Source: Closterium sp. NIES-65 (Eukaryota > Streptophyta > Zygnematophyceae > Desmidiales > Closteriaceae). Taken from it: a stretch of 64,000 nt of DNA. Where the stretch lies: positions 930,001-994,000 of the forward strand of contig CANXME010002068.1 in assembly GCA_948144175.1 (NCBI GenBank). The letters run 5' to 3'. Made by a program: the position numbers and the translations under genes. A model generated the notes under the pieces. The model was not told where the DNA came from. It was given only the letters and a program-made list of their open reading frames with translations, and made no database searches. Positions 1 through 58,362 of the stretch are shown here, piece after piece (position 1 is the first letter of the stretch; every line of letters starts with the position of its first letter).

Positions 1-3000
1 CTCCAACACCCCCAGAACCAGCACTGCCAGAGCCCTCACCTCGAGCACCAACACCCTCAGAGTCCGCAGTGGCCGGGAGAGGAAGCGCCGACGGCTGCTG
101 CGGAGGCTGTGAGGACGACTGTGGGGAAGGAGGAGAGACCTGGGGGGGGACCAAGGGAGGGGGGGTAGCCTGCAACACACCTGACGGAGCGGGAACCGGG
201 GGGGGGTACCGGAGGAGAGGGAGCGGGAGGAGGAGGAGCTGGGGCGAGGAAGAGGGGAGGGGGGGGAACCGGGAGACCTCGACAGGGGTACCGGACGAAG
301 TAGGGGACGGACTCGTCGAAACTGACGTCACGAGAGTCAAAGAACCAGTGGGAGGGAGGGTGGTAAAAGGTGAAGTCAGAGGAGGCCTCAGGGAAACCAA
401 GGAAGACACAGGGGACGCCGCGAGGTGAGAGCTTGTCCGCAGAGGTGTCGCGGACAAGTGCCAAGCAGCCCCAGACACTAAACCTCGACGCAACACCAGG
501 GGACCCTGTCCAAAGACTGGTCGGTGAAGCCCCTGGCCGAGAGACGCGAGGCCAGAGGTTCAGCTGGTGAGCGGCGTACTGAGCCGCGTAGGGCCACAGA
601 AAATGGGGCGCGCGGGCGTGGATCATGGAGGTGCGGGCAATCTCCATGACCAGGCCTAGCCGACGCTCAGCAACCCCATTCTGCTGTGGAGAGTCTGGAA
701 GAGTCCAGGACTGGGTGATGCCCTGCTCAGCACAGAATCTGGCGAGAATGCCGGAGCGAAACTCACCCCTACGGTCGGAGTGGAGACAACTGACACGACG
801 AGGACGAGTACTCTCGGTGGCGAGCAGCCACCGGATCAGCGTAGAAGTCACGTCGGACTTCTTCGCCAAAGGGAACACGGTGGTGTACCGAGAGTAGTCG
901 TCAACGACCACTAGGAAGAAGCTCTCTCGCTCAGGTCCAAGCCATGGAGCGGGGCCCCAGACGTCTAAGTGGAGTGTCTCAAAGGGCTCGGAGGCTGGAC
1001 GAAGGGAGGAGGAGTGAGGAGTGGCGCGCAGCCGACCCTGGACACAAGGACCGCACGGAGGAGCGGGGGACTGCGGGAGCGGCGGGAGGTCGCGGGGGAG
1101 GCCTAAGACAAGACGCTGACTGGACATAGCGCGGAGACGAGAGAGGGACGGGTGACCAAGGCGGTGGTGCCAGAGGAGGGCAGGGTGGGACAGCGACCGA
1201 CACGAGCACGACGCAGCCACTAGACCTGGCACAGCTACCTGACTGGACCTGGCTACCTGGTGGGACGGGGGAACCGGACGGGTGTCGGTGTGGAGGGTGT
1301 ACAGACCAGAGCCCGGCTCCTGACGAAAAGTGGCCAGAGGGGCGTACGTGTCACCGTCCACACAGACTGCAGTGTCACCCGAAGGCTCAAACCAGACCCC
1401 GACGTGCTGTCTCGCCAGAGGAGCCACACCAACCAGATTCCTAGAGAAAGTAGGAACGTGGAGGCCGGTCAGAGAACCGGAAGGGGCAGCTGGGCACGGG
1501 AGGGTAGTGGCGTGAGTCGCAATGACCGGTCCCGAAGAGGGATCGGCCAGTGCTACAGAAACCGGCGCCGAGAGTGGAGTAAGAGTCGTGCTGTCGCGGA
1601 AGAAGCACTGCGTCGCTCCGGAGTCCAGTGTGAAGGAGAGCGACGCGTCTGCCGAGGGAGCACCTGTACTAGTAGCTAGACAGGATCCTACACCAGCTCC
1701 TACTCTAGCAACAGGCAAAGATCCTACGCTAGGTACAGGCAAGTAAACAGATCCGACAACACTATAGTCAACATCAGCATACATGGCATAAGACCTAGCA
1801 TCATCCATAGACATATCAAACACAGCAACACCACGAGCAAGGAGTGGTCCCCAGCGCGGTGGCGGGGGAGCGGAGGGACCGTGGTGCAGGACGTACAGGT
1901 CGTCAAGACGGCTGAAGCAGCGTGCAGCAGAGTGGTTAGGGCGGCCGCAGTACGTGCCCATGCGCGGACCCGTCAGGATCCAATACTCACAGGGACCAAC
2001 GTCGCGGCCGGCCGAGCGGGGTCCCCGACTAGAAGGGGCACCACTGCGCCCAGTGCTCGGGGGGCCCGTAGGTATCCACTGCTGCGGGGGGGCCCACTGC
2101 TGCGAAGGGCCCCACTGCTGCTGAGTGCCCCACTGCTGCAGAGTGCCTCACTGCTGGGGCTGGTGCTGAGGCGGACGCTGCTGTTGGCCCTGGCGCTGCT
2201 ACTGCTGTCCCTGCCGCTGCTGCTGTCCAGGCGGGGGCAGCTGCGGAGGAGTCTGCTGCTGCTGCTGCGAAAACCCCTCACCATCGTCTAGAGGAGAGCC
2301 GTCAGGTCCCGAGTCACCCCCGCCGCCACCCCCGCCACTAGTACTACCACCACCGCCGCCACCCGCAACACCCCCAGAACCCCCGCCGCCCTTCCCTCCC
2401 TTCTTGCCGGACTTGCCACCTTTCTGTCCGCCAGAGACAGAAACGGCCGCCATCTCCTGAGAGGCAGAAGACGCGGCAGTGGCAAGCGAGGCAGTGAAGG
2501 TGGGAAGCTGTGGTACCGCACACCCCTCAAAGAGACGAGGAGGAGGCGCGGAAGAGGCGGAGGCAACAGCGAGGAGGTTACTCTCGATCTTCGAAAGAGC
2601 GGTCTCAAGAAGATCGATAGTAAGCTCAGTGGGGAACTTCAGGAGAAGCGCGTCGCGGGCTGTGGCTAGACGGCCAGGGAGGCGAGTGACTAACCAGTGA
2701 ATAGTGAGCCACATGGGGGGGGGTGCAAGGGCAAGCTGTTCCTCAGTGCAAGCGGCCTTGAAGCGAGCTTCAAGGGAGCGCAGGTGGGTAGCGAGGTCAG
2801 CAACAGTCTCAAAGGAGGCGAGGTCAGGGTAGATAAAGGGGACGAGGAGGCGGCTGAGGGAGGCAGAGGAGGGAGTGGAGTAGCGAGCAACAATAGCAGT
2901 GTAAAGGTCTGCAGCAGACTCGACCTGAGTGAAGTGGACAGCCTCAGTCGGCGGGAGAAGGTCGGTCAGGGCGAGGCAGGCAGCAGCGTCACGAGACTCC

Positions 3001-3113
3001 CACACGTCACGAGCGAGGAACCGGCGCTGGTACTCAGCCTCCTGCTCGGAAGTAGGCGGTGGGGTAGTGGGCAGCGGTGAAGGCTGCGGCGGGGCGGGCA
3101 GAGCACCGGACGC
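1..3113 (-). mobile_element. Copia fragment, near-identical duplicate of part of element A (copy 1)
   Basis: Positions 1-3113 repeat positions 7888-11000 at a constant offset of 7887 bases. I found only a few substitutions in about 3.1 kb, for example one changing His to Pro after the Gag region and one changing Phe to Ser in Gag. The fragment covers, on the minus strand, the Gag body, the zinc-binding tail, protease, integrase and the start of the Pro-rich hinge. It continues left out of the window. On the right, similarity stops abruptly at 3113, inside gag, and no 5' LTR or primer site follows. It carries the same stops and frameshift as element A, so both descend from an already defective sequence. 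Confidence 0.92.
57..1961 (-). pseudogene. Copia protease-integrase ORF, copy 1
   Basis: This 634-residue frame starts in a Cys/His zinc-binding tail (GTYCGRPNHSAARC) and runs through an aspartic protease motif (LDSGAT, about residue 112), the GAG-pre-integrase HHLGH-like signature (WHHRLGHPS, about residue 266) and an integrase core (LHLDVWGPA, later HSDRRGEF and NGVAERR). It ends in a Pro-rich tail where the reading frame slips before the hinge. In the parent element it would continue from Gag: only two stop codons separate the two in the same frame. It is treated as a pseudogene because of those stops, the frameshift and the missing 5' end. The protein is identical to that at 7944-9848. 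Confidence 0.88.
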
Positions 3114-3377
3114 ACACCCGGACGAGTGGCGCTCGTGTCTGGCGAAATCGCCACTTGCGCCACTGGCGCACGTGTGTGGCGAAATCGCCACTTGCGCCAC
3201 TGGCGTGAGGGTGTGGCGAAATCGCCACCTGCGCCACTGGCGCGAGGGTGTGGCAAAATCGCCACTTGCGCCAGTGACACGCGTCTGTGGCGAAATGGCC
3301 ATTTGCACCAGTGGCGAAATCGCCATGGACGAAATGGCCAGTGGCGCGGCAGTCAAGAAACTGCTACTGCCGCGCAT
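2199..3377 (-). pseudogene. Copia Gag with replaced N-terminus, copy 1
   Basis: Residues from about 90 onward match the Gag of element A (10086-11141): the helical UBN2-type body (ARYSTPSSASL, WLVTRLPGRL) followed by a Lys/Gly-rich stretch and a poly-Gln region ending in TAG. The first 90 or so residues are not Gag. They are the translation of the minisatellite at 3120-3345, joined in frame at 3113. Element A instead has the ordinary N-terminus (FDPEGRAIDFSTWL). The reading frame is open across the junction, but there is no promoter or LTR to suggest expression, so the fusion may be fortuitous. Confidence 0.8.
3120..3345. repeat. Palindrome-rich minisatellite
   Basis: About six imperfect copies of a 36- to 40-base unit. 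Each has two short dyads: TGGCGAAATCGCCA (six-base arms around AA) and a GCGCCA-N-TGGCGC type palindrome. Variants substitute AAATGG or ACACG at the ends. The array begins just outside the truncated gag fragment, so it either marks the breakpoint or was already at the site. Confidence 0.85.
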
Positions 3378-7475: not shown

Positions 7476-8383
7476 GGCTGTGGCTGCGGCTGCTGCTGCT
7501 GAAACTCCAACCGCTCACGCTCCACCCGCTGCTGAACCTCCGACCTCTCACGCTCCAAACGCTGCTGCTCCTCACGCTCTAGACGACGAAGGGCCTGGTA
7601 ACGAGTCGGGTAGGGGTGAGGAGGAGGAGTGGTGTCAGGAGACGACGAAGAAGAACCGGCTCCACCCTCGACAGGACCCGGCTGAGCACCCCCAGAGCGA
7701 GGACCCCCTGCGGCAGCACGACCAGTACCTGTAGGAGGTGTACCCGCACCCCCAGTCGTGGCGCCGCCAGTGGCACCAGCACCAGCCCCAGACTCTCCAG
7801 CTCCAGAAACACCACCAGCTCCAGCACCACCACCGACTCCAACACGCTCGGGACGTGCAGCTGCGGCAGGTGCACGCTCAGCTCCAACTCCAACACCCCC
7901 AGAACCAGCACTGCCAGAGCCCTCACCTCGAGCACCAACACCCTCAGAGTCCGCAGTGGCCGGGAGAGGAAGCGCCGACGGCTGCTGCGGAGGCTGTGAG
8001 GACGACTGTGGGGAAGGAGGAGAGACCTGGGGGGGGACCAAGGGAGGGGGGGTAGCCTGCAACACACCTGACGGAGCGGGAACCGGGGGGGGGTACCGGA
8101 GGAGAGGGAGCGGGAGGAGGAGGAGCTGGGGCGAGGAAGAGGGGAGGGGGGGGAACCGGGAGACCTCGACAGGGGTACCGGACGAAGTAGGGGACGGACT
8201 CGTCGAAACTGACGTCACGAGAGTCAAAGAACCAGTGGGAGGGAGGGTGGTAAAAGGTGAAGTCAGAGGAGGCCTCAGGGAAACCAAGGAAGACACAGGG
8301 GACGCCGCGAGGTGAGAGCTTGTCCGCAGAGGTGTCGCGGACAAGTGCCAAGCAGCCCCAGACACTAAACCTCGACGCAACAC
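6377..8383 (-). pseudogene. Copia hinge and reverse transcriptase N-terminal part, element A
   Basis: The first 400 or so residues are a low-complexity hinge between integrase and RT: Pro/Ser-rich, then Gly/Ala-rich, then a poly-Gln run near 7445-7500. The RT follows: MDAEMASYRSTGTYV, a GMWIFKVK motif, FKARYVARGFSQ and LHSLDFSTAFLQG. It ends at TAG 6377, where B, C and D have the Gln of GTQW. The hinge overlaps the tail of the protease-integrase ORF because of a frameshift at a C-run near 8155, so this frame before about 8160 is a shadow. Confidence 0.87.
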
Positions 8384-9848
8384 CAGGGGACCCTGTCCAA
8401 AGACTGGTCGGTGAAGCCCCTGGCCGAGAGACGCGAGGCCAGAGGTTCAGCTGGTGAGCGGCGTACTGAGCCGCGTAGGGCCACAGAAAATGGGGCGCGC
8501 GGGCGTGGATCATGGAGGTGCGGGCAATCTCCATGACCAGGCCTAGCCGACGCTCAGCAACCCCATTCTGCTGTGGAGAGTCTGGAAGAGTCCAGGACTG
8601 GGTGATGCCCTGCTCAGCACAGAATCTGGCGAGAATGCCGGAGCGAAACTCACCCCTACGGTCGGAGTGGAGACAACTGACACGACGAGGACGAGTACTC
8701 TCGGTGGCGAGCAGCCACCGGATCAGCGTAGAAGTCACGTCGGACTTCTTCGCCAAAGGGAACACGGTGGTGTACCGAGAGTAGTCGTCAACGACCACTA
8801 GGAAGAAGCTCTCTCGCTCAGGTCCAAGCCATGGAGCGGGGCCCCAGACGTCTAAGTGGAGTGTCTCAAAGGGCTCGGAGGCTGGACGAAGGGAGGAGGA
8901 GTGAGGAGTGGCGCGCAGCCGACCCTGGACACAAGGACCGCACGGAGGAGCGGGGGACTGCGGGAGCGGCGGGAGGTCGCGGGGGAGGCCTAAGACAAGA
9001 CGCTGACTGGACATAGCGCGGAGACGAGAGAGGGACGGGTGACCAAGGCGGTGGTGCCAGAGGAGGGCAGGGTGGGACAGCGACCGACACGAGCACGACG
9101 CAGCCACTAGACCTGGCACAGCTACCTGACTGGACCTGGCTACCTGGTGGGACGGGGGAACCGGACGGGTGTCGGTGTGGAGGGTGTACAGACCAGAGCC
9201 CGGCTCCTGACGAAAAGTGGCCAGAGGGGCGTACGTGTCACCGTCCACACAGACTGCAGTGTCACCCGAAGGCTCAAACCAGACCCCGACGTGCTGTCTC
9301 GCCAGAGGAGCCACACCAACCAGATTCCTAGAGAAAGTAGGAACGTGGAGGCCGGTCAGAGAACCGGAAGGGGCAGCTGGGCACGGGAGGGTAGTGGCGT
9401 GAGTCGCAATGACCGGTCCCGAAGAGGGATCGGCCAGTGCTACAGAAACCGGCGCCGAGAGTGGAGTAAGAGTCGTGCTGTCGCGGAAGAAGCACTGCGT
9501 CGCTCCGGAGTCCAGTGTGAAGGAGAGCGACGCGTCTGCCGAGGGAGCACCTGTACTAGTAGCTAGACAGGATCCTACACCAGCTCCTACTCTAGCAACA
9601 GGCAAAGATCCTACGCTAGGTACAGGCAAGTAAACAGATCCGACAACACTATAGTCAACATCAGCATACATGGCATAAGACCTAGCATCATCCATAGACA
9701 TATCAAACACAGCAACACCACGAGCAAGGAGTGGTCCCCAGCGCGGTGGCGGGGGAGCGGAGGGACCGTGGTGCAGGACGTACAGGTCGTCAAGACGGCT
9801 GAAGCAGCGTGCAGCAGAGTGGTTAGGGCGGCCGCAGTACGTGCCCAT
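7944..9848 (-). pseudogene. Copia Gag tail-protease-integrase, element A
   Basis: 634 residues in the order zinc-binding tail, aspartic protease (FTLDSGATQCFF), GAG-pre-integrase (LLWHHRLGHPS with a downstream CGPC pair), integrase catalytic core (LDVWGP, VVVDDYSRY, LHSDRRGEF, SPQQNGVAERR) and a Pro-rich tail. The frame is the same as Gag: the interval 9849-10085 translates as a run of QQWG-type repeats interrupted by TGA at 10035-10037, where a Trp would complete the repeat. Frame is lost before the RT hinge. One of the best preserved integrases in the window. Confidence 0.92.
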
Positions 9849-10085
9849 GCGCGGACCCGTCAGGATCCAATACTCACAGGGACCAACGTCGCGGCCGGCC
9901 GAGCGGGGTCCCCGACTAGAAGGGGCACCACTGCGCCCAGTGCTCGGGGGGCCCGTAGGTATCCACTGCTGCGGGGGGGCCCACTGCTGCGAAGGGCCCC
10001 ACTGCTGCTGAGTGCCCCACTGCTGCAGAGTGCCTCACTGCTGGGGCTGGTGCTGAGGCGGACGCTGCTGTTGGCCCTGGCGCTG

Positions 10086-11141
10086 CTACTGCTGTCCCTG
10101 CCGCTGCTGCTGTCCAGGCGGTGGCAGCTGCGGAGGAGTCTGCTGCTGCTGCTGCGAAAACCCCTCACCATCGTCTAGAGGAGAGCCGTCAGGTCCCGAG
10201 TCACCCCCGCCGCCACCCCCGCCACTAGTACTACCACCACCGCCGCCACCCGCAACACCCCCAGAACCCCCGCCGCCCTTCCCTCCCTTCTTGCCGGACT
10301 TGCCACCTTTCTGTCCGCCAGAGACAGAAACGGCCGCCATCTCCTGAGAGGCAGAAGACGCGGCAGTGGCAAGCGAGGCAGTGAAGGTGGGAAGCTGTGG
10401 TACCGCACACCCCTCAAAGAGACGAGGAGGAGGCGCGGAAGAGGCGGAGGCAACAGCGAGGAGGTTACTCTCGATCTTCGAAAGAGCGGTCTCAAGAAGA
10501 TCGATAGTAAGCTCAGTGGGGAACTTCAGGAGAAGCGCGTCGCGGGCTGTGGCTAGACGGCCAGGGAGGCGAGTGACTAACCAGTGAATAGTGAGCCACA
10601 TGGGGGGGGGTGCAAGGGCAAGCTGTTCCTCAGTGCAAGCGGCCTTGAAGCGAGCTTCAAGGGAGCGCAGGTGGGTAGCGAGGTCAGCAACAGTCTCAAA
10701 GGAGGCGAGGTCAGGGTAGATAAAGGGGACGAGGAGGCGGCTGAGGGAGGCAGAGGAGGGAGTGGAGTAGCGAGCAACAATAGCAGTGTAAAGGTCTGCA
10801 GCAAACTCGACCTGAGTGAAGTGGACAGCCTCAGTCGGCGGGAGAAGGTCGGTCAGGGCGAGGCAGGCAGCAGCGTCACGAGACTCCCACACGTCACGAG
10901 CGAGGAACCGGCGCTGGTACTCAGCCTCCTGCTCGGAAGTAGGCGGTGGGGTAGTGGGCAGCGGTGAAGGCTGCGGCGGGGCGGGCAGAGCACCGGACGC
11001 ATGCGCAAACAGGTGCACGCCATCCTGGCGCTGGCTCCTAAGGTGGCGCTGGGCCTGCGTCAGCCAGGTACTAAAGTCGATCGCACGCCCCTCAGGGTCG
11101 AAACGGAGCACGCGAGACGTCGCCATGAGGGGCGAGGACAA
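10086..11141 (-). pseudogene. Copia Gag, element A
   Basis: 351 residues. A likely functional start is the internal Met of MATSRVLRFDPEG at about residue 6, matching the starts in B, C, D and I. The N-terminal FDPEGRAIDFSTWL block and the helical body (TAIVARYSTPSSASL, DLATHLRSLEARF, MWLTIHWLVTRLP) are the UBN2-like copia Gag fold, which forms the virus-like particle shell. The C-terminus is Lys/Gly- and Gln-rich and ends at a TAG inside a poly-Gln run, almost certainly a changed CAG, since the frame continues into protease. Compare copy 1, which lacks the N-terminal block. Confidence 0.9.
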
Positions 11142-43116: not shown

Positions 43117-43354
43117 TATTAGAATATAGTGCTCTGCCTTAGGAACCTCCATAACTTAGTGAGTAGCTTAAGAACTTGGGAGGGGGAGTAGGAGAGGTGT
43201 TGGCCAACAAAAGAGGGTGTTCACTATAGAGCGAGCAGTACAAATAGACAAGAATGAAGAAAGGTGCACCGCTAAACAGAAAGTTATATGACTACAGTAT
43301 TCTACACTACAGGCAATTATAGAACAATATATAGAATTATATATTATTCTAACA
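43117..43354 (-). repeat. Remnant G right LTR (5' LTR)
   Basis: 238 bp, TATTAGAATATAG at its left edge (the usual TG is TA) and TATTCTAACA at its right. The right half is shared with 27335-27466. Its left partner is not identified. It lies inside the 5' LTR of element L. Confidence 0.75.
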
Positions 43355-43644
43355 CAAACAACTGACTCGTTATTGAGCAGTTGCTCGAGTCGTCACTGCA
43401 TCGAACCGCAACAGCAACAGCAAAACAGTTATTAGCTATAACCTTTCATATTCCCTTGTACTCTTATAAAAGCTTGTATCTCATTGATTTAATCAATCTA
43501 CTTTGCCCTCACACACCAGCGCAAGGTGGTTCACAGACTTATCATTAAACACTTCTGCTATTACATTGTTCCTACTCAGAGTTACATTGTTCTTACATTG
43601 TTCACAGTCCTGCAAAGATCCTCAGGGCTTTTCTCAGCTCAACA
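43355..43644 (+). repeat. Element L partial 5' LTR
   Basis: Ends CTCAGCTCAACA against the primer site. A TATA box (CTTATAAAAG, TATAAA at 43465-43470) lies about 180 bases before the end, with CATTGTTC repeats downstream. The 5' edge is cut by remnant G. Confidence 0.7.
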
Positions 43645-43656
43645 TGGTATGAGAGC
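43645..43656 (+). promoter_or_regulatory. Element L primer-binding site
   Basis: TGGTATGAGAGC, one base different from the standard tRNA-iMet-complementary TGGTATCAGAGC, directly after the LTR. Confidence 0.85.
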
Positions 43657-43697
43657 TATCAAGGCAAACTGAAGTACTATTAAGACACCTACAACAT

Positions 43698-43708
43698 CAC
43701 AAAAAACC
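43698..43708 (+). repeat. Left terminal inverted repeat of the Plavaka-like element
   Basis: CACAAAAAACC, with AT (or CAT) before it. CAC termini recall the CACTA group. Exact element boundary could be shifted by up to three bases, because CAT precedes the left end and ATG follows the right end. Confidence 0.6.
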
Positions 43709-44295
43709 TGGGTTTTTGAAAAGGGGTTGGAAGGGGTGTACATTTCAGGTTTTCTGGTTGGCGAAGCTCCGAAACGAAATCGCGACCAATCACGGACCAA
43801 AATCGGACCGCGTTTGTTTGTTGGAGTTGAAAATCAATTTCGGGATGTAGTACATTGTCGGTTTTTTGTGGGTTGCCAAAATAGTTGTCATTTTGGAACA
43901 AATCTAGTTAGCTATGACTTCAATTAAGCTTGAGAGTGCATAAATAAGCTGGCAATTTTATTACAAAATAAATGCAATACATATGATACTTATTTAGGAG
44001 ATAGGTACTGTCCAGATGGAACGCCTTCACCACATGGACGTGGCGAAGCAGCGCTTCAAGCGGTATCACGGAGTACGCATACACTCCAGTCGTCCACTTG
44101 AGGCGAGTGCATCTGTCAAAGTTTAGAAGAAAGAAGAGAATTGAACTAGCAAGAATGAGGATACAAATAGCAAACCCTAGAAGGGTTGTACTCGCTATAG
44201 AGCGCCCCACTACAGGCTAGAGCATAAGATAACATTCTGACACACCCCCATAGCCAAAGTGGGGTGTAATCAGCAGAGCAAGCAAGGCAGTACAA

Positions 44296-44333
44296 GCTCA
44301 GGGTGGATCACAATGTCACCACACATTCTGAGC
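44296..44333 (-). promoter_or_regulatory. Conserved 38-nt stem-loop, element J
   Basis: Arms GCTCAG/CTGAGC and GGTG/CACC, 38 nt, about 55 bases from the 3' LTR. Preserved in an element with no coding capacity, so selection on protein cannot explain it. Confidence 0.82.
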
Positions 44334-45167
44334 ACAAGTTCAAGAAGCAATAGTTTAGAGTTCACAATTATAAGCAAAGCTAGAGTTCACTCTCTCTCTC
44401 TCTTACAGGTGCTGCTGGCGACACGACGGCAACCTCCATACAGCTTCCCCAAACTATCCCACTCCCCCTGGCACATACCCGCTGCTACACCGCTAGCTCC
44501 ACTCCCACGCACCCCCCTTAAACCCTAAACCCCAGTCTCCCACACATCCACCCCCCTCAGCGACAGCTGCAGCAGTGGGAGACGAAGGAGGAGGAGGAGC
44601 AAAGGGAGGAATGAAGAAGTGCCACCCCCATACGCGCCACCCCCTACTTGCCACCCCCAAACCCTAACACAGGCAGGGTGGGATGGCGGGTAGGCAGGGT
44701 GGGATGGCGGCGCTCGCCCCCCGAGGGAGCCGCGACGGGCGACGGGAAAAGGGGCCGGGGCGCAAGTAGGGCGGCGGGGCCGCAGGTGTAGGGCGGCCGG
44801 GCCGCGAAGTTGGGGCGGCGGGGCCGCGACAGAAGGGCGGCGGGACCCCAAAGTGGGGCGGCGGGGCCGCGAACGTAGGGTGGCGGGGCCGCGAAATGGG
44901 GCAGCGGGGCCGCGAAGTGGGTCGGCGGGGCCGCGACGGGTCCCCGTCGCCCGTCGCGGCGCCACCAGAGGGCGACGCGGCGAACGACGGGGCAGAAGCC
45001 CGCCGCGCGCCTCGGGGCGCACAGCGGGCAGAGAACCGCCGCGCGCCTCGGGGCGCACGACGGGCAGAAAACCGCCGCGCGCCTCGGGGCGCACGGCGGG
45101 CAGAAAAAGTTGCAGCGGAAGCGAGGAGGTGGTAACCCACCCACAGGATCGATCCAAGGGGATCGAC

Positions 45168-45181
45168 CTGCTCTGATAGCA
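45168..45181 (-). promoter_or_regulatory. Element J primer-binding site
   Basis: Minus strand TGCTATCAGAGCAG, a one-base variant of the tRNA-iMet-type site. The preceding 45 bases (45120-45167) are almost the same in K. Confidence 0.85.
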
Positions 45182-48100
45182 TGTCAAAGTTTAGAAGAAA
45201 GAAGAGAATTGAACTAGCAAGAATGAGGATACAAATAGCAAACCCTAGAAGGGTTGTACTCGCTATAGAGCACCCCACTACAGGCTAGAGCATAAGATAA
45301 CATTCTGACAGCATCCAGTTGCAGCATCCTCCCCGCACGCATTCCAATATCGAATGTAAGCCAGCTCCTCCCTCTCTCCACGGATTTTTGTGTGGAACAG
45401 CAGCAGCAACCTTGCATACCACTCATCTCTCCGACCATACCTTACACCCTCTACTGCAACATCCGAGTACCACGGCCGCTCAAAATAGTCAGGCGTCGCC
45501 CGAACGAAGTGAGAAACCCTTGAGAAGCTGGCATCATCTGCCGCTGGGATGGCCAACGATGCATGGGCCTGCATAACAATGGCAGTTTGTAAGCTATTGG
45601 GACAGGGGCAAGAAAAAAATGATTGTATGATCCACGAAGTACTTACTCTGATCTTGGGGACGCATCCAGCATAACGTACTAGCGCATCCTTGAGGGCAGC
45701 TTGTGCAACTGGTTGTTGCTTGGCCCACTTCCTTGCAAACCAGTTGGTGGAGGTGGGTTCTTCTGGTAACTCCACAGGGAGAAAGTAGGACTCTTTGATA
45801 AGAGTCCATGTGCCTGTCTCAATGGCCTGCCAACAAACAGTAGCAAGTTTATTACATTATGCATGCATAGCATTGCAATTCAATCACTAGACAGGTTTAC
45901 CTGCCGCATGGCAGTGTCCCGGCCAGCGGGATCGTCCACCGGCACAACGTCTGGAATGCGCCTAGCATGGAACTTCATAATCTGACCATCTACATTGCGC
46001 TTGTTGGACTGCCGGTAGATCCTCTTTACCAACGGTCCGTGCAAGTGCTCGAACATGTTGGTGCTGAATTCCGTGACATGACCCGCCCGACGAATGGAGT
46101 CAATGTAGTGCGACATGAGATGGGTTTTCACAAGGCACCAGGATGATGGCTGCTTTGGAAAAGCAGCCTGCAACTGCTCAACCAGCCTGATGAGAGTGGG
46201 AGTTGACAGCATATGCAAGGACATCAGAGTCTACTACAGCATTCTGCAGCCTATTTTATTTGATATACTATCATGGTTTATCAGCAACATCCTGTGAAGA
46301 TAGGTTACTGCAACAGCTTAGGTGCCGTGGCTAGGCATTCATGCAATGCCCAAGGTTGTACATGCATGTTAATAGTACCGGGAGGTCTTGAGATCCCGCA
46401 CGGACCGCTCGGTCTGCCCCATTGGCTGGCAACATAAGAGGTACCAGCCAAGATAGGCACGAACAGCATCCATCTGGGGCTGGCGAAGCAGGCCAGCAAA
46501 GACAAACACCATGACCTGCAAATTTCAGGGTTTATCACAGCAGGGGGGCATGAGTAGTTGGGACATGCGTGAGAAGATGAGCAAACGGGTTTCGAGGCGG
46601 AATTAATGAAAGCATGAGAGAGGGTACTGAGATGTAGCAGGGGGTGTGTTGTAGTCTGGAATCGGCATGCCACTTCTGCATGGTGCATGCTATCGCACAA
46701 GATGATCACATGCACCATGGCTTGCACACCTGCATGACGGCCCTGTGCTCATAGGCCGCGACACATGCTCCAGTCTCGAAGTAGGTGCTCTCTGGCAGGC
46801 GCAGATGGTTCAGGCGCGTGCGGTCGCGAATGAGCGACAGGCGCCTGCGCATACACAACAGTTCAAGGGCAGGAACAAATACAAAAACATGTAAGTAGGA
46901 GGAGGAGAGTGCAGATTGGAGTGTTGTTGACAACGAGCAACAAATCTAATCCCCCAGGGCACTAACCTGTCCATCTGCTTCACGCGCCGCTTCTTCATCT
47001 TGCGCACGACAGCCACAATGTGGCTCATCATGCCCAGGTCCGCCTGGTGCATGATGTGAGGCATGATAATGAGGTAGGGATAGCCCCACACGGTCCCTGG
47101 GACATCCCACTTCCAGAGCACACACTGGAAAAGGGGATGTGGTGGGGAATGGTAGAGAAAGGTATTTGAGAGACTCGGCACACAACATGTGGGACAGTGC
47201 AATGGGGTATAGCACATCTCCCCAAGGTTTGAGCAACAAGGAGTGCGTAGACTACACAGTCGCCCGGGGAACAGGTCGCTCACCTCAACCGGGTAGGTCG
47301 AGTAGGTCTTGCATGGGTCGTCCTGGCTTGATGTCAACCCTGCCGCCTCATTCACGATCCATTGCTGCTGTTCAGGCGTGTGCGGCGTGTTCCGTGCCTT
47401 TACAGCAACCAGATGCTCCTGGTGTAGCACAGGGGGTGGGATGGGATGAACAGGTAAGGGAGGTGAGATTATGAGGTCCGTCATGTGACATTCGGATGGC
47501 GATGGTTCTGAAGGCACGCAGATCGCATGTTTTCTCACCTTTGCAGCATAGCAGATGCTGCACGGCATCCGCGATCCATGCAAGAGTGTGCAACTGATCT
47601 TGCCGCTCTCAGGGTAGTCGCACACCCAGGCGTACAGCAGGGGCCGCACGGTTTGCCAATCACCGAAAGGGTCCCTGAGACGGAACCCGCTGCAAAGAAC
47701 AGGTATTGTGGCAACAGGAACAGGGATTTCGGCTTTGTGCATCGGCGAAGAGGGACAAGGGGGACTGTTACATACAGAAACGCTGTGCATACTATGACGT
47801 TGATTGGGTGACGACATAGCAAGACGGAAATAGAGTACGGACCTTTCCATGCCATCAAGAAGCGGCTGCAACATGGTGATGACGCATCGCTGGAAGAGCA
47901 TCACCTTCTCCACGGGAGACATTGCAGAAGGGGGGATAGGAAGGAGAGCAAGTAGCGTGTGCCCGGCTTTCCCCTATCGCTTGGCCTGGGAGATGTTTGC
48001 AAGCGTCATCATTAGCGGCCACGCCTTCTTCCAGCCGTTGTTGCTCATGTGCGTCACATCCGAGTATAGGATGATACCCCCTACGACTTCGGACCATCCA

Positions 48101-49299
48101 AAGTGTTCCTGCAAGGCATGACAAAGAGGGAAAAGGCACACGGTCAAACACCAACAAGGTAACTTGTCGCCAGGTGGACTAAGCATGCTTCAAAGAACTC
48201 CCCAGAAACATGACACAATGAAGATGCTCCCTACACAACAACGCATCAACGGAGGCATGCGCACTCTTCTGGTTTTGGGTGGCAACGGTGTATTTCCATA
48301 CCTGAGCGTCGTTCCACCACGTTCCAGTTTCCGGCGTGGTATAGCGACGCTCGCCTGTGTCAGGGTCCTCATCGACACGAGCCTTGAGCTTGAAGCCGGA
48401 CGCGTTGTTGGTATGCCCAAACAGTTCGGCAAACACCTAGCGTACAGCGGCAAGAGCAGGAGAGAACCAAACCCTGGTTAGTGGCGTTGAAGGTGGGTCA
48501 GATCTCACACAAGCCTAACAGAGGCAACGTTCAACAAGCACCAAATGGATGCGGAATCTGCATTTCACAGCCATGGATCCAGATTCAACTTACCTGCGCA
48601 GAGTTCTGGAAGAGAAGGCGCTGTGGCGGATGACCGTCAATCTCGAAGGTCGCCACTGACCATCCGCGATTGAGCCCAACCAAGCGCTCCATCTCGAACC
48701 GCTCCAGATCCTTGCTGTTTCGGATCTCTGAGATCACAAGAGGCGCAAGGCCGGGCTCCACCACGAGCTGAAGCAGGCCATTGATGTCGATCTCCGCCAT
48801 TCCCATTCTGCCATTAACACGCCGCACGAAATGCAGCAGCTTCAACGCAAGCGGATTGAGGGGCATGGCATTGCTCTGCCCAGAGATGCATGTCGGCGGT
48901 GAGGCGTGAGTCTCTTCAGGGCGGCTCTCCGGATGCTCACTCGTGTCAGAGGCATGTGTTCTGGGAGGCGATTGATGCTCACTTTCAGGAGCCCCCCACG
49001 TTCACAGATGAGGGTGTTGCGTCCCCGTCAGCTTCGGGCACGCGAGGAGGACCATTGACACCGTCGGTGTTGGACGCGTTAGACGCGGTAGGGGAAGCGG
49101 ATGCAGCGGGAGCGTCTGACAGAATGTCGTGGACGAACAGCAGAGCGTGTAGACCGGCGGACGGTGTAGACGAGGAGGGCCTTGCCACAGCGGAAAGCCC
49201 TTGACAAGGGGTCCGCCGTGACTTATGGCCGCCATAAACCTGGGCGTTGGGGAACCATCTGTTGCAGAACTCGCATACTACGCCTGGCAAAGAGCCCAT

Positions 49300-50004
49300 G
49301 TATTCTAGATCCGTCTAAGAGTGGTGGAATGTAGTGTGAGGAGACTAGCCAGTTTGAAGCTTGTAAACGCTTTTACTTCACGATCAATGAAGGCTCAGAC
49401 TCCAGCACGATCATCGCTACAACGTGAAGTGTCCACGGCGGCTTGGATCTCTGCACGCCTGGCACTTGATCGTGGCGCATTAGTGAGAGACTGGTTAATA
49501 ATGGTCGCGCAGCACGGCCGTGACAAGCCTAGATACAGACCGCCGACAGCACGGTATAGGCCTTCCCTACAAGGCGTGTCGCCCCCTGTTAGAGTGATTA
49601 CAACGTGAGCAGGGCCTTATGCAGTGGTGTACGGCTAGCTTGGTCGCGGGCGTGCGTGACGAGCACGGTGAGGAGTACGTGCCTCCATATTCAAAACTTC
49701 GGTTTTTGAATCGTGTGTGAGAGTCGAGGTGGGAGAGGAAGAGAGGGAAGAGATCTGTTTGGTTTTGTGATTCTTTCGAGAGTCTCTATAGGGGGGAGAT
49801 CGCGATCACGTAGGTGTGCCCAAAGTGGTGCGCACTCCAAACCAGGTAATACCATTGTACAGTTACATATAACAAATAACTTAATGTCACTCATAACGAT
49901 TATACGACCATACTTTACGTCATGCTCAATACCTTCCGGCATATTGACAACGACAGTGCTTAGAAACAACACCGTTAGTGTGGTCTGCTGCCATTTGGGA
50001 AGCA
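49300..50004. other. Transposase upstream region
   Basis: Presumed promoter side of the divergent transposase gene. Unique, moderately AT-rich DNA. Small ORFs on both strands show no domain. No strong TATA box stands out. Confidence 0.4.
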
Positions 50005-50836
50005 ACACCATTCCACAACCGATTCACCATGTCACGTAAGCCACGGGCCTCAACGCTGCAACGTCGCCGCGTCTGAACAGCGATGTCGATAACGCATAAC
50101 CGCTCGTACGTTGGACCAGTGCTTCATGCCACACCCTCCATGCACCTTGTCGAGGGCCCATGCAAGAATTGAGCCCAACCCAACACCATTCCACAACGGT
50201 TTCACCATGTCCCGCAAGCCATGGGCCTGAACGCTGCAACGTCGCCGCGTCGGAACAGCGATGTCGAGAACGCATCTACGCTTGTGCATTGGGCCTGTGC
50301 TTCATACCACTCTCTCTAAGCACCTTGTTGAATTTCTGTGCAAGAATGGATGACAATCCAACGCCAAACCACAACAGATTCACCATGTCGCGCAACACAC
50401 AGGCCGGAACGTGGCATCGTCGCACTGTCTAAACACTGCTGACGGGAACGCAACTTACGCTTGTGCGTTGGGCCTGTGCTTCATACCACTCTCTCTAAGC
50501 ACCTTGTTGAATGTCCGTGCAAGAATGGATGACAATCCAACGCCAAACCACAACGGATTCACCATGTCGCGCAACATACAGGCCGGAACGTGGCATCGTC
50601 GCATTGTCTAAACACTGCTGACGGGAACGCATCTTACGCTTGTGCGTTGGGCCTGTGCTTCATACCACTCTCTCTAAGCACCTTGTTGAATGTCCGTGCA
50701 AGAATGGATGACAATCCAACGCCAAACCACAACGGATTCACCATGTCGCGCAACAGACAGGCCGGAACGTGGTATCGTCGCACTGTCTAAACACTGCTGT
50801 CAAGAACGCATCTACGCTTGTGCGGTGGGCCTGTGC
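50005..50836. repeat. 179-bp satellite array in the DNA transposon
   Basis: About five tandem units. ACCATGTC[A/C/G]CG recurs at about 50027, 50206, 50384, 50563 and 50742, and AATGGATGACAATCCAACGCC at 50345, 50524 and 50703. The first two units are more diverged. The array is interrupted by element K and a partial unit continues at 52351-52430. Three similar 66-residue ORFs are unit translations. Confidence 0.92.
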
Positions 50837-52350
50837 TGACAAAAGTTAGAAGAAGAAAGAGGATTGAACTAGCAGGAATGAGGATACAAATAGCAAAACC
50901 CTAGAAGGGTTGTACTCGCTATAGAGCACCCCACTACAGGCTAGAACATAAGATAATATTCTGACACACCCCCATAGCCAAAGTGGGGTGTAATCAGCAG
51001 AGCAGGCAAAGCAATACAAGCTCTGGGTGGATCACAATGTCACCACACATTCTGAGCACAAGTTCAAGAAGAAATAGTTTAGAGTTAACAATTATAAGCA
51101 AAGCTAGTGGTAGTCACAACGGGCAAGTGAGGAGGAGGAGGGAGAGTGAGGGGAGAGGAGATAGGAGGCGACGGCTGAAGCTGCAGACACACGGGCAGCA
51201 GGAGGCAGACTGGCACAGCGGCTACCGGACAGCGCCCGGACTACAGGAGTAACAGGCCCCGCGGCTCAAATAGCGGCGGACGGGCAACGGACCCACAGGC
51301 GGCTGGCGTAGAAGTCTAGCTCACTGGGCTACCGGGACAGCGCCCCGGACTACAGGTGCTGCTGACGACAAACTGGCAACCTCCGCTCATCCTCCCGCAC
51401 ACAGTCCCACCCCCCTGATACACACCCGCTGCTACACCGCTAGCTCCACTCCCACGTACCCCCCTTAAACCCTAAACCCCAGTCTCCCACACAACCACCC
51501 CCCTCAGCGACAGCTGCAGCAGTGGGAGACGAAGGAGGAGGAGGAGCAAAAGGAGGAAAGCACACCGGCCACCCCCATACCCGCCACCCCACAGCAAGCG
51601 GCCCCCTCAGGTCGCCTCGACGGACGACGGGAAATGGCAGGGGGAAGGGGGGGGGGGGGGGGGGGGGGCGGTGTGGTGAAAGGGGCCCACCACGGGCCTG
51701 GTTGGAGGGCGGAGCCGCGACAAGGGGCGGGACCGCGACGGTCGGGGCGGGGCCGCGACGAGGGGCGGGGCCGCGACGTAGGGCGGGGCCGCTTCGAGGG
51801 GCGGGGCCGCGACGCAGGGCGGGGCCGCGACGTAGGGCGGGGCCGTGTCGAGGGGCGGGGCCGCGACGGTCGGGGCGGGGCCGTGACATAGGGCGGGGCC
51901 GCTTCGAGGGGCGGGGCCGCGACGCAGGGCGGGGCCGCGACGTAGGGCGGGGCCGCGTCGAGGGGCGGGGCCGCGACGGTCGGGGCCGCTTCGAGGGGCT
52001 GGGCCGCGACGCAGGGCGGGGCCGCAACGTAGGGCAGAAGCCCGCCGCGCACCTCGGGGCGCACAGCGGGCAAAGAACCGCCGCGCGCCTCGGGGCGCAC
52101 GGCGGGCAGAAAACCGCCGCGCGCCTCGGGGCGCACGGCGGGAGGAAAAAGTAGCAGCGGAAGCGAGGTGGTAACCCACCCACAGGATCGATCCAAGGGG
52201 ATCGACCTGCTCTGATAGCATGACAAAAGTTAGAAGAAGAAAGAGGATTGAACTAGCAGGAATGAGGATACAAATAGCAAAACCCTAGAAGGGTTGTACT
52301 CGCTATAGAGCACCCCACTACAGGCTAGAACATAAGATAATATTCTGACA
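50837..52350 (-). mobile_element. Element K: TRIM-like non-autonomous LTR element in the satellite
   Basis: 1514 bp. LTRs 50837-50966 and 52221-52350 (130 bp) appear identical, and the TSD is TGTGC (50832-50836 and 52351-52355). Primer site TGCTATCAGAGCAG (minus) at 52207-52220; polypurine tract at 50967-50977. The interior has GGGGCGGGGCCGCGACG repeats (51715-52035), a G-run at 51644-51668 and the GCGCACGGCGGGC module (52040-52145). Coding-free. Identical LTRs imply recent insertion. Confidence 0.95.
51020..51057 (-). promoter_or_regulatory. Conserved 38-nt stem-loop, element K
   Basis: Same structure and length as in A, B, D and J. One arm base is changed (GCTCTG for GCTCAG on the plus strand), leaving one mismatch. 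Confidence 0.78.
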
Positions 52351-53184
52351 TGTGCTTCAAACCACACTCTCTAAGCACCTTGTTGAGTGTCCATGCAAGA
52401 ATGGATGACAATCCAACACCATACAACTACTTTTTCTTGTCTGTTACTATTCGTCAACACATTCGTTTGTTACACTTTGTGTGTGTGACATGAGACAAAC
52501 CCACTACCGGCGGCAACCCCATATTAAACCAAGAGCATCAAAGTTTTGGATGTTTTTTTATTGTTGTATTTTTTGAAATTTATTCCGCGTACATGTTCAA
52601 CACTGTGCGTTCACGAGATCACTGTACTTTGCAGGGATAAGGTTACATTCGCACTTGAGGTTCTAAAACTGTCATACTATGCGTAGAGATTGATGCGTTG
52701 GCAACCGTGGTTGGCCAATGCATCTCAAACGAGTCCCCACACAACACAAGCACCAGCCAAGAGGTACTTCCGCCATTGAGCGGATGAGATCGAGCGGTAG
52801 GCGGGTTTATGCACGGGTGGCTACACGTACACCGTCCGATATAGCCTGATAGGGTTACAGTAATCTCTATAGTCTCGCAACCCACCCCAACCACCCTCGT
52901 GCCCCACACACCTGCTCCCGTCACCCTCTATGCCAACACTTAGACACTGCTCTCTGTTTGACAAGCGCGTTTCCAGATCGCCCGTGACTCACCAATATAC
53001 TAAGTCACGGGCCGTAGCTTTGTGATGAGTGGCTACTATTTCAGGTTTAGTGATAGCAGTGATTTTCGGAGAAACATAACAGTGATAGGCCATCGTTAAA
53101 CACTTCGTGATATTCATTTGCTGCGGCCCTTCAAAACAGGCTAACCCGTTTTGTGCGATAGACCTTGGCATTCCTACGGCAACC
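52351..53184. other. Satellite remnant and spacer before the accessory gene
   Basis: 52351-52430 is a partial 179-bp unit. The rest is unique. A stretch of T near 52553-52570 is the only low-complexity feature. It would contain the promoter of the rightward gene; no motif is compelling. Confidence 0.45.
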
Positions 53185-56100
53185 ATGATACGTGCCACAC
53201 GTCAACAAGCAATGGAGGAGGAACAGGCCGGACGCCGAGCGACAAGGACGATCTCTAAACGGACTGATAGGGAGGGTGGCGGCGGCGCTAAGAAAACTAA
53301 TGCGTCCGTTGCGCGTGGCACTGGGGTGAATAAAGTGGCGGCAAAGAAGGTCGCGCGGGATCAAGAGAAGTCCGGCAGGAAGGCGGTAGACAACGGGAAG
53401 CAACCAAGGCCACGCAAGCGTGTTTCTACAGTGAACAAAGATGCAGATGTTGCCTCAACTGGAACCACGCCCGGTCCGACTAACGACGGCACCAGTGGCG
53501 GCAACGAACATCCGGGGTGAGGGAGCGCAAGTCTTGCAGTCCCGTCGGCGGAGAGAGAGGGATCGGCGACAGGGGGAACCACGGAGGCGATCCACGCGCC
53601 GAGCATACCGCAACCAAGGAGTCCGAGGCGGAGGCATCTCAACACCATCTGACGCTGCTCCAGCCGACCGTGGTCGAAATTTCTGCTGCCGTGCTGGATA
53701 AGGACAAGGTGGGGGAGCACGAGTCGATGGAGGATCCTAGCCACGGCATAGCTGACGTCGGTGGCTCTCCTCCTTCTGGTGGACGGGGGAGACGTAGGCA
53801 GAGGAAGAGCGATGAGGAGGACGATTCTGACACCGCCGTGCCCGGGGACATCACCACGCGGGCGAAGAGGCGGCAGACGACAGGCAGTGCCGACGACGCT
53901 GGTGGCGCGGAAGTTGGGAGAACGCGAGGTGCCAGTGAAGCTAGTGGCAAAGCGACGGGTCATGCATTGCGCCAAAAGGGCCGACCCGCAGCAAGAAAAA
54001 CATCCGGCGGAAGGAGGGGCAAGAAACGGGGTCGTGAAGACCCTGGTGAGGCCGAGGAGGAGGATGCGCAGGAAGAGGAGGATGAAGAGGATGCGGAGGA
54101 GGATGACGCGGATGTTGGGGAGGATGAAAAAGATGAGAATGATGGCGGGGAGGACGAAGAGGAGGAGGAGAAGGAGGAGGACGATGAGGAGGAGGATGAG
54201 GAGGAGGAGGAGGAGGAGGAGGAGGAGGAGGATGATGAGGAGGAGGAGGAGGAGGAGGAGGAGGAGGAGGAGGAGGAGGAGGAGGAGGAGGAGGAGGAGG
54301 AGGAAGAGCAGGGGGACGATAAGGAGGAGGATGAACAGGAGGAGGAGGAGGAGGAGGAGGAGGCAGAGGAGGAGGAGGAGGAAGAGGGGGAGGAGGAGGA
54401 GGACGTGGCGGCAGTGAAGGGACGGGGCGGGCGTGGCAGACGGAAGAGTGGTATGGGGAAGGTGGGGGGCCGGACTCGCCATTCCCGAAAACGCGGGGCA
54501 GTTGACGCCGCGCGCGGCGTAGCAGCTGGCAGAGCGAAGGCGTGTAAGGTGAAGGTCGAAAGTGAAGGGGGTGGTAAAAAGCAAGGGCGCCAGGGAGCAA
54601 AAGGGGATGGAGGAGGTAAGGGTGGCGGCGCCAAAGGGGTTCCATTGGGTACTGGCAAGAAAGAACCTGCCGGTAAAAGTCGCAGCGGCCGTCAAAGCAC
54701 CCCGCGGAAAGGTGGCAACGAGAAGGCGCTGGCCCCAAAAAATCCGAAGGGACAGTAGAAAGGTGAGCACCCTGGCCAATAGACCGGGCGTGGTTGTTGC
54801 ACTCTTTGCGCAACCGTGCCAAATAACACCATTCTACACGTTGTTTCTCCCCTGCAGGGAAGGAGAAGGACGACGAATCTACAAAGAAAGGTAAAGTCTC
54901 CTGTCTCAAAACAGTACACGGCTAAGCCCGATTTAGATTCAAACCATTGATTTTATGCATGACTGTCTGGCCCTGTATTGATACCGATCGACTTTAATTT
55001 CTTGATCCTACTCCCTCTAAATCTCAGCCCCTCGCGTTACAGGCATTGGGCCACCGGTAAGCGTGCAACGGATGCAGCTAATGAAGGGGGCCGGAAGAGC
55101 AAGTGTGACGCCGCTATCCACAGGAGCCCCAAGGTTCTTCACGCCGTACTCCGGCCCAAGCAAAGTCGCTGCGACGGCTCCCGGTGCGCCAAGAGGAGAG
55201 GAATCTGAATGACCTCCACCAGGCCCCGTCACGCACTCCCCACTCGCCTCACCCTCATACCCATTTCGGCCGCTATATGCTTCTCCTGTCCGGGGCAGGG
55301 CGGTCCCACCCCTCGCTGGTCCTTCGCGCGGGCATCAGCCAAGCACTTCTGCCAATCCCTTCCCTGAGCTCCCCTTTTCCCGCCAGTGTGATAGTGTGAG
55401 GGCACACAGGACTGCTGAAGAAGATGCTGAAGCCCTTGGCCAGAGGGGGGATTCTTCACACCCTTTTCCACCGCTCATGGGTGCCCTAGGTGAAAGTGTG
55501 GAGCACGAGCAGTTTGTTACATGGGAGGAGTTCCAGGCGCTGCGGTCTGAGATGTACGCCATGTTTGCATAGCTCGGCCTGCATCGTGGAGTACCTGCCA
55601 GTTATGCCGGGGGTTTCGCAGCCGCGCCTATGGCTGGTACCCCGCCGCCGATGAGTGCCGTGGACAAGGCACGAGTGCTAGTGTTGCAGGAGACAAACCC
55701 ATTCCCGGTATGTGGCGGGCCAAATGGGGCAGGTTGGGGCTGACGTGGGGGCTTGGAAGGGTACACGGGAGCGGCACGTGACGAGGTGACGCGTGTTAGG
55801 TGGGTGGGGTGACGTGGCATGGGGTGGGTGGGTGGGTGGGTGTGATGTGGCACGTGGGGCTGGTTGTTCCCTGACGTGGCGGATGGAGGACGGTGTGACG
55901 TGGCGAGATGTGAGGCTTGGGGCTGACGTGGCGGCTTGGACGGGTACACGGGAGCGGCGCGTGACGAGGTGACGCGTGTTAGGTGGGTGGGGTGACGTGG
56001 CATGGGGTGGGTGGGTGGGTGTGATGTGGCACGTAGGGCTGGTTGTTCCCTGACGTGGCGGATGGAGGAGGGTGTGACGTGGCGGGATGTGAGGCTTGGG

Positions 56101-57996
56101 GCGGACGTGGCGGCTTGGACGGGAACACGCGAGCGGCGCGTGACGTGGTGACGCGTGTCAAGTGGGTGGGGGGTGACGTGGCATGGGGTGGGTGGGTGGG
56201 TGTGATGTGGCACGTGGGGCTGGTTGTTCCCTGACGTGGCGGATGGAGGAGGGTGTGACGTGGCGGGATGTGAGGCTTGGGGCGGACGTGGCGGCTTGGA
56301 CGGGTACACGCGAGCGGCGCGTGACGTGGTGACGCGTGTCAGGTGGGTGGGGGGTGACGTGGCATGGGGTGGGTGGGTGGGTGTGATGTGGCACGTGGGG
56401 CTGGTTGTTCCCTGACGTGGCGGATGGAGGAGGGTGTGACGTGGCGGGATGTGAGGCTTGGGGCGGACGTGGCGGCTTGGACGGGTACACGCGAGCGGCG
56501 CGTGACGTGGTGACACGTGTCAGGTGGGTGGGGGGTGACGTGACATGGGGTGGGTGGGTGTGACGTGGCACGTGGGGCTGGTTGTTCCCTGGCGTGGCGG
56601 ATGGAGGAGGGTGTGACGTGGCGGGATGTGAGGCTTGGGGCTGACGTGGCGGCTTGGAAGGTTACACGGGAGCGGCGCGTGACGAGGTGACGCGTATCAG
56701 GTGGGTATGGGGTGACGTGGCATGGGGTGGGTGGATGTGACGTGGCAAGTGGGGCTGGTTGCTGGTGGATGTGGCGGATGGAGGAGGGTGTGACGTGGAA
56801 AGTTCACACAGTCCATCCTGTGGTCACGCGGCCACAGTCATAACTGATGGTTTCTCTCTCCCCATGTTGTGTTGTAAACCCCACACCCCTGCGCAGAACA
56901 AGGCCTACTTAGTGTGCTCTCAGCTCCTGTTTTTGAACCCCTCAGAAAAAATCCAGTACTACCCTGCACCGGAGGAAGTGTTCGAGGCGTTCGCTGTCCA
57001 CTTGTCTGCCGAAGGGCTCGAGTCAATGAAGCTGCTGTGGTTGCACAACGACAAGTCAACCATGGGTGTCTTCAACCACCAGATGTCGTCAACCAGGTCA
57101 ACAATCAACAGCACCCTCAGGCCAGCAACGTACGCCGGCATGGGCCTCTCCGATTACGCCCATCTCGTGGATACCCTGCCCACTGAGCTACACCCAAAGA
57201 AGTGGTTCAACCACGAGGATCTCCTGGTCGAGTACAGAGATGGTATGTGCAACTCGAACACACCATATCCCCCTGCCCATATGCCAGGTGGCAGCTACAA
57301 ATAACCGTGCGGTGTCCCTCACCCTGACTCTCACCCAGCCACTTGATTTCTATGCACCCCCTTTCCAACCCGTACGCTCCCTCCCAAAATGCAGAACAGT
57401 GGGCCCTCAACTGGCACTTTGACAAGGCCACCGGAACGCCCTTCAGCAACCCTTTGTTTGCTTATGCGTTCAAGCTCTCCTTCAAGAGGGGCGGGGTCGT
57501 GTTCAACAAGTTCAAGAGCCGCATGGTGGCATGGGGCCTGTTTTCGGTAAGGATGTAGATATGTGTCTGTACACCCATGCCTCATGTCTCGGGAGATATG
57601 GGTTGCCTGTACTTCATCTAAATCCCTGGTCGCTTAGGCATTCGCGGTTATGTAGGGTGTGTTGTCTTCACCGCTTTCAGTTGGCCCATATACCCGTAAC
57701 CCCCCCCCCATACTCCATCCACCCAACCCTACACCACATTGCAGATCGAGTGGCCCCTTCTGCAGGATAAGCGTCGCAAGCGAATTCCGGCCCAGCCAGA
57801 ACAAAACAGGCCGGACTACTTCGAGTGGTGTGACAAGGTCAAACAGATGATACACTTTGCCGTCGTGGAGCGGCGGATCCCACACGATCCGGCTCAGGGT
57901 GCGTTCGTCTTCCCGAACAAGTTCCTCATCGACGATGGCGACCTTGGAGATGTCATTCTTGCCCACCGGGCGATTGCAGGGCCCAGCACTGCGTAG
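53185..57996 (+). CDS. Unrecognised multi-exon gene carried by the DNA transposon
   Basis: ATG at 53185 opens a Lys/Arg-rich segment (MIRATRQQAMEEEQAG) with a splice donor after 53516. A second long exon (within 53517-54758) passes through a basic region, then about 120 residues of nearly pure Glu/Asp (54040-54410), then another Lys/Gly-rich region. A small exon lies at about 54857-54893. Later exons are clear: about 55400-55707, 56897-57242, 57395-57546 and 57745-57996, in phase, ending GPSTA-stop. They encode NKAYLVCSQLLFLNPSEK, MKLLWLHNDKST, WALNWHFDKATG, SRMVAWGLFS and WPLLQDKRRKRIP blocks. TAG codons at 54756 and 55570 interrupt. I do not recognise the family. By position it could be an accessory (TnpA-like) transposon gene or a captured host gene. 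Confidence 0.6.
54040..54410 (+). repeat. GAGGAG microsatellite coding poly-Glu
   Basis: Long imperfect GAG/GAT triplet run inside the second exon. Frames on the opposite strand (Ser-, Leu- or Pro-rich, up to 472 codons) are its shadows. Confidence 0.85.
55708..56896 (+). repeat. Intron with ~182-bp tandem repeat
   Basis: Intron between CCG|GTATGT and GCGCAG|AAC. It is filled from about 55740 to 56790 by six units in which GACGTGGCATGGGGTGGG recurs at about 55812, 55993, 56175, 56358, 56539 and 56716 (spacing 176-183). Each unit has many TGACGTGG motifs. The unit is unrelated in sequence to the 179-bp satellite though similar in length. Confidence 0.9.
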
Positions 57997-58346
57997 GCTA
58001 TTTGACCTGGTGCTAAAACTGCTGGTTGTTAGAATGTTGAATAATAGTTGTTTACCAAAATATTGAATGTAATTCTGAAATCCTCAATACCCAAAATAAA
58101 ACAAAACCAAAATCCAGTTTATAATATTTTAGTACCGAAATTGCACCAGAACGGATTGCGTCGGAATGTCATCCGGAAAAGCTCGCGTGCCAATTTGAAT
58201 CTTGACCCGAGCCAAACCTTGTCGCGAGATGTGTGTCGGAGCTCCTATCAAATGATTCCAACCGTCGGTCGAAATTGGGTCCGGACTTTTTTACGCGAAG
58301 ACAACCCCAATCAAAATTCATCCAAACTTGGCATAGGGTTTTTGTG
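57997..58346. other. Right subterminal region and end of the DNA transposon
   Basis: AT-rich DNA following the gene's stop, with the AGCTCCGA/CGCGAC block (58221-58243) and terminal inverted repeat (58336-58346). No further gene. Confidence 0.6.
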
Positions 58347-58362
58347 ATGAACATCAGAAGGC

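Follow-up and report, generated by a model that had tools for sequence, protein, structure and literature searches.

Transposons of the type reported here are known mainly from fungi. In the available part of Kojima (2025; PMC12730594), Plavaka is grouped with CACTA in the CMCT clade, whose transposases carry the motif order D, D, C(2)C, H(3-4)H, E. The PlavakaB families, DNA transposons of Agaricomycotina, are defined there by CATCA..TGATG termini and a target site duplication (TSD) of 2 or 3 bp, and KDZ (Zisupton) has a TSD of 8 bp. The same source places some fungal elements with Plavaka-like transposases in EnSpm, on the basis of similarity search, CAC..GTG ends and a 3-bp TSD, and describes TET/JBP dioxygenases, thought to counter silencing, in fungal Plavaka and other elements. 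The green alga Auxenochlorella is reported to carry an EnSpm-Plavaka element (PMC12636532, available part), and En/Spm needs two proteins, tnpA and tnpD arising by alternative splicing of transcripts from a single element (PMC2613891, available part). Within the open-access literature, in part represented by excerpts, the Plavaka families found with their ends and target duplications described are all fungal.

We describe here a Plavaka-type element of Closterium sp. NIES-65, lying in a 64,000-nucleotide stretch of DNA (C1770:930001-994000, hereafter the window). It resembles PlavakaB in its CATCA..TGATG termini, 2-bp TSD and Plavaka transposase, and in the possession of an extra gene, which some PlavakaB families also have according to the available text (PMC12730594), but it differs in its plant-lineage host and in having two divergent multi-exon genes on either side of a satellite. 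With the Auxenochlorella element it shares a green-lineage host, although Auxenochlorella is a chlorophyte (PMC12636532, available part). With En/Spm it shares CAC..GTG inside the terminal inverted repeat (TIR), membership of the same wider clade and two proteins, but the En/Spm TSD is 3 bp rather than 2, and the subterminal repeat arrays of En/Spm are not clearly seen here. The initial annotation had likened the gene orientation to that of CACTA TnpA/TnpD; this comparison does not hold, since tnpA and tnpD come from one spliced element whereas the genes here are separate and divergent, and because En/Spm obtains its two proteins by splicing, the likeness is one of working, by analogy, and not of layout (PMC2613891, available part).

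Results

Ends of the element and its target duplication

The element has a net length of about 11.9 kb once insertions J and K and their target duplications are removed, and contains, in order, a leftward multi-exon transposase gene, a 179-bp satellite and a rightward multi-exon gene (Table 1). The two genes are thus divergent with the satellite between them, and both are interrupted in the window copy. The initial annotation had proposed an element of about 12 kb with two genes, inverted ends, a leftward Plavaka transposase, a central satellite and a rightward multi-exon gene; all of these were found again within the corrected limits, and the ends, the paired genes and the Pfam match bear out the overall description. 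It had put the ends at 43698 and 58346, and although the inverted ends were correctly recognised, the true ends lie 3 bp further out on each side.

Table 1. Features of the two-gene element and its insertion site, in window positions.
Feature	Position	Strand	Remarks
Two-gene Plavaka-type element	43695-58349		Ends with 2-bp TSD AA; from other copies and empty copia sites
Left TIR, CATCACAAAAA	43695..43705	+	30 left ends placed here, own included; genome pattern counts
Right TIR, TTTTTGTGATG	58339..58349	-	30 right ends placed here, own included
TSD AA, left copy	43693..43694	.	7 sibling copia loci
TSD AA, right copy	58350..58351	.	7 sibling copia loci
Copia 5' LTR (to 43644) and primer binding site (43645-43656)	43354..43656	+	Insertion target
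Plavaka transposase gene	43975..49299	-	11 exons, approximate borders; Pfam PF18759 and comparison with C1955
Transposase exons 1-6	49299-48594, 48436-48302, 48108-47843, 47688-47539, 47418-47284, 47124-46964	-	
Transposase exons 7-10	46847-46730, 46515-46377, 46189-45901, 45826-45647	-	
Transposase exon 11	45568-45311, resuming at 44108-43980 past insertion J	-	
Zinc-finger-like N-terminal stretch of transposase	49204..49275	-	From sequence
Insertion J, TRIM-like	44114..45310	-	129-bp terminal direct repeats, TSD GCATC
Central 179-bp satellite between divergent genes	50013..50837	.	4.6 units in window copy
Insertion K, TRIM-like	50837..52350	-	130-bp terminal direct repeats, TSD TGTGC
Second gene	53185..57996	+	Upstream exon chain uncertain
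Second gene, KGRP motif	53973-53999	+	
Second gene, E/D-rich tract	54048-54413	+	83% acidic residues
181-bp minisatellite in second-gene intron	55734..56798	+	
Second gene, conserved C-terminal domain exons	56897-57226, 57395-57547, 57743-57996	+	

The corrected positions rest on searches of the 874-Mb assembly (2400 contigs), in which other loci do end there. From the best 40 of 203 left and the best 40 of 202 right candidates, 30 left and 30 right ends, the window's included, were read and placed by alignment. The left ends have exact CATCAC in 26 of 30 and one altered letter in the other four; the right ends have exact GTGATG in 29 of 30 and GCGATG in one. Many of the sequences flanking these ends differ, and some groups have a common flank. 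The 2 bp outside both ends are identical in seven of eight end pairs (AA in the window, CC in C2388, CT in C2155, TA in C2182, C1652 and C2148, and TG in C1955), the exception being C2325 with AT/AC. The C2148 pair, which sits in a repeated unit, was inferred from order and distance, and the surroundings of C2182 and C2148 are repeated. A 26-base left-end pattern, allowing up to two mismatches, gave 174 matches in the whole genome and none for the reversed control, whereas simple counts of CACAAAAA were uninformative (13654 and 13428 matches, compared with 13042 and 13330 for the reversed control).

Local alignment of the two ends of the window copy gave a score of 26, which shuffled sequences also reach (mean 24.8, s.d. 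3.6, largest 39), so it is the other copies, and not the window copy alone, that demonstrate the TIR. The shared subterminal blocks proposed initially are not clearly above control. Beyond the 11-bp TIR there are seven one-mismatch 10-mer pairs in inverted sense, compared with 0-14 in 15 interior stretches, and 13 pairs between the ends in direct sense, compared with 0-12; four of these 13 fall within the right TIR, leaving nine, and one control stretch overlaps the right end, without which the control ranges are 0-14 and 0-11.

The site of insertion gives a second measure of the TSD. The element lies between a copia 5' LTR with its primer binding site and a copia Gag start that adjoins it on the right, and 19 of the 42 LTR-side matches listed end at query positions 293-302, the end of the LTR. 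The left flank (to 43694) and the right flank (from 58350) were searched separately (best 40 of 3195 and best 40 of 2943 candidates). Apart from the window, 20 loci have a left-flank match that stops no more than 8 bp from the junction, and in seven of them (C2356, C741, C429, C842, C139, C2388 and C1709) the right flank is listed alongside, that flank not being among the matches listed for the other 13. In all seven the overlap between the two flanks is exactly 2 bp; in C139, C2388 and C1709 the left alignment ends 5-8 bp short and the junction was extrapolated. Since these siblings run on without the interval, they confirm that a single copia was split, as first proposed, and they fix the duplicated target as the 2 bp AA. 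The copia element is itself damaged: only its 5' part was seen, and a search for the 3' LTR through the remaining window sequence and 29.7 kb beyond it found none.

The element therefore ends in CATCA..TGATG with a TSD of 2 bp, both in the seven end pairs and at the seven empty copia sites, as in PlavakaB, and has neither the 3-bp TSD of CACTA/EnSpm nor the 8-bp TSD of KDZ. Elsewhere in the window there is a direct repeat (1-3114 and 7888-11001, starts 7.9 kb apart) that is 99.94% identical over 3114 bp, and is perhaps a young LTR pair or a recent duplication.

The leftward gene

The joined exons of the leftward gene match Pfam PF18759 (Plavaka) at 76.5 bits (E 2.9e-21; cut-off 26.3), and two single stretches taken alone fall short of that threshold, at 22.3 and 16.6 bits. 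At E values up to 1, Plavaka was the sole Pfam family matched, with CACTA transposase families absent from the matches. Residues that could form the D, D, CxxC, HxxxH, E series occur in order, at positions picked by eye. Pfam zinc-finger matches to the transposase are all below their cut-offs.

Reading the gene against the more distant copy in C1955 gives 11 exons rather than the 12 first counted. Excluding the variable start of exon 1 (49299-48885), the exons are 94.5% identical to that copy (1948/2061) and the introns 84.2% (1236/1468), and this difference supports the exon chain independently of RNA data. The window copy is disrupted, having lost the frame in exon 1, acquired an in-frame stop in exon 3 and received J in its last exon. 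The dN/dS ratio against C1955 is 0.15 over 685 codons, with single exons, each with few changes, ranging from 0.05 to 0.92. Against two nearer copies, A (C2388) and B (C2325), it is 0.62 and 0.42, the weaker constraint being as expected of decayed copies. Counts of differences by codon position between the window and these two copies were uninformative.

The rightward gene, the satellite and the insertions

The second gene encodes a KGRP motif, a tract rich in acidic residues and a C-terminal domain that is conserved, and has an in-frame stop at about 55570 in the window copy. The dN/dS ratio of its last three exons is 0.29 against C1955, 0.37 against copy A and 0.34 against copy B; by these ratios both genes are under purifying selection. 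Searches gave no Pfam match, two chance matches in the PDB (E 0.73 and 1.2) and no relative among viral contigs. With no Pfam match there is no TET/JBP match either, unlike the cargo of fungal Plavaka elements described in the available text of PMC12730594. Relatives at about 78-82% identity sit in 446-aa open frames elsewhere in the genome, and in these the gene may be split otherwise by introns.

The central satellite has 10.0 units in copy A and 8.1 in copy B. At the sites of J and K both copies run uninterrupted with a single copy of the 5-bp target (one letter of which is altered at the K site of copy A), and the absence of J and K there indicates that they inserted later, as initially proposed. 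J and K are TRIM-like elements of one family with a reverse primer site, and a stretch related to them lies in the minisatellite intron of copy A.

Copies in the genome and pairing of the two genes

This two-gene, Plavaka-type DNA transposon occurs in many copies, of which the element in the window is one. Copy A aligns collinearly with it from one end through both genes to the other, and so does copy B apart from a missing stretch that holds the last exon of the second gene. The copy in C1955 is about 13.6 kb long, with ends CATCAC and CTGATG. It has an insertion of about 620 bp beyond the second gene (at about C1955:33525-34148), whose inverted ends resemble AGGACGTGTGTGA and which may be a MITE.

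A transposase exon lies inside, on the opposite strand, at 75 of the 100 left-end matches listed, and in 57 of these 75 the spacing is 1001-1008 bp; two transposase matches fall on the outer side of the listed left ends, and for 25 of the 100 no transposase is among the matches listed. We scored the best 150 of 1064 candidate transposase loci and the best 150 of 640 candidate second-gene loci. The second gene was found on the predicted strand and side, 5-30 kb away, in at least 100 of the 150 transposase loci (median distance 10.5 kb), compared with 2, 4 and 5 of 150 in wrong-geometry controls. Most scored transposase loci thus have the second gene, and copies with ends and both genes occur elsewhere. 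The count used 153 second-gene matches (those to the first conserved exon and six added from another listing), leaving out three exon-8 matches and one duplicate. No second gene is among the matches listed for the remaining 50 loci, and because only the best 150 of 640 second-gene candidates were scored, the 100 paired loci are a lower bound. Chlorophyll-protein genes occur in pairs of contigs, so both haplotypes may be present and locus counts are possibly inflated.

One transposase exon has an equal score at 24 loci apart from that in the window, a pattern in keeping with a recent burst, and such sets of equal-scoring copies suggest recent movement of the element. Five copies (C2182, C1234, C2161, C1351 and C1432) have the same span of about 27.3 kb by end coordinates and like left flanks, and are perhaps segmental duplicates or haplotigs.

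The genome holds at least 133 Plavaka-profile matches (best 123 of 1397 candidates), many of them in single open frames (the longest 1914 aa), which probably belong to other Plavaka families. No such matches were found in 14 control genomes, one of which is a bacterium, so that this says little about eukaryotes. There are also 146 chlorophyll a/b-binding profile matches in the genome, and one LHCII protein has higher scores with single-domain plant and moss chains (8htu, 8c29 and 7xqp, 435-423 bits) than with the Chlamydomonas chain 6kac (383 bits), two polyprotein chains of 9vfj giving 553 and 440; the host is accordingly a photosynthetic organism and probably a streptophyte.

Discussion

We consider it highly probable (roughly 0.9) that the element is a DDE transposon of the cut-and-paste type, from the Plavaka lineage within the CMCT clade, with PlavakaB-like termini and TSD, which inserted into an older copia and carries an accessory second gene. 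The accessory role is inferred by analogy with En/Spm. The leftward gene would encode a DDE transposase that cuts at CATCA/TGATG, and the rightward gene, with its acidic tract and conserved C-terminal domain, would supply an accessory transposition protein. Like TnpA in En/Spm, this second protein may bind the DNA of the element, or chromatin, and the satellite-bearing centre could hold a shared two-way promoter. More tentatively, and at somewhat less than even odds, we propose that the family is a PlavakaB branch with hundreds of candidate loci whose transposition needs both proteins of the divergent pair, the second having an undescribed fold and having evolved apart from TnpA.

What the second gene does is where another explanation competes most seriously. 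It could be cargo that aids persistence of the element, such as an anti-silencing or chromatin protein, and takes no part in the transposition reaction; we think this possible, if doubtful. The TET/JBP dioxygenases of fungal Plavaka and other elements, thought to be anti-silencing in the available text of PMC12730594, offer a parallel, an acidic tract would be in keeping with a role in chromatin, and the Pfam and PDB searches recognised no DNA-binding domain. The fixed geometry in at least 100 of the 150 scored loci and the selection on the second gene argue for a role in transposition, though cargo that pays its way would fit both, and En/Spm provides a precedent for a second required protein (PMC2613891, available part).

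It is unlikely that the element is a strict CACTA/EnSpm element with a Plavaka-like transposase, even though CAC...GTG, the form seen in EnSpm, can also be read in its ends and Kojima places some Plavaka-like fungal elements in EnSpm (PMC12730594, available part). The TSD is 2 bp and not 3, the conserved ends extend to CATCAC...GTGATG, the transposase matches Plavaka and no CACTA family in Pfam, and in one copy, C1955, the right end retains TGATG while GTG is altered. That the genes come from separate nested elements and are neighbours by accident, as might be imagined in a window so dense in repeats, is scarcely credible given the collinearity of copy A from end to end and of copy B in all but the last exon, and the geometry shared by most scored loci but by only 2-5 in controls.

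The initial annotation had suggested that such an element may be undescribed. For a green-lineage Plavaka as such this does not stand, given Auxenochlorella (PMC12636532, available part), but it does for the bounded two-gene family: within the open-access literature, a bounded plant-lineage Plavaka family with a conserved second gene stays new. With its ends, target duplication, empty sites and conserved partner gene, the family is an independent plant-lineage case, and its near-identical copies suit an excision test. The presence of the second gene in most scored loci hints that movement may depend on a machinery of two proteins. The family also lets one ask what leads members of the CACTA-RAG clade to acquire a second protein.
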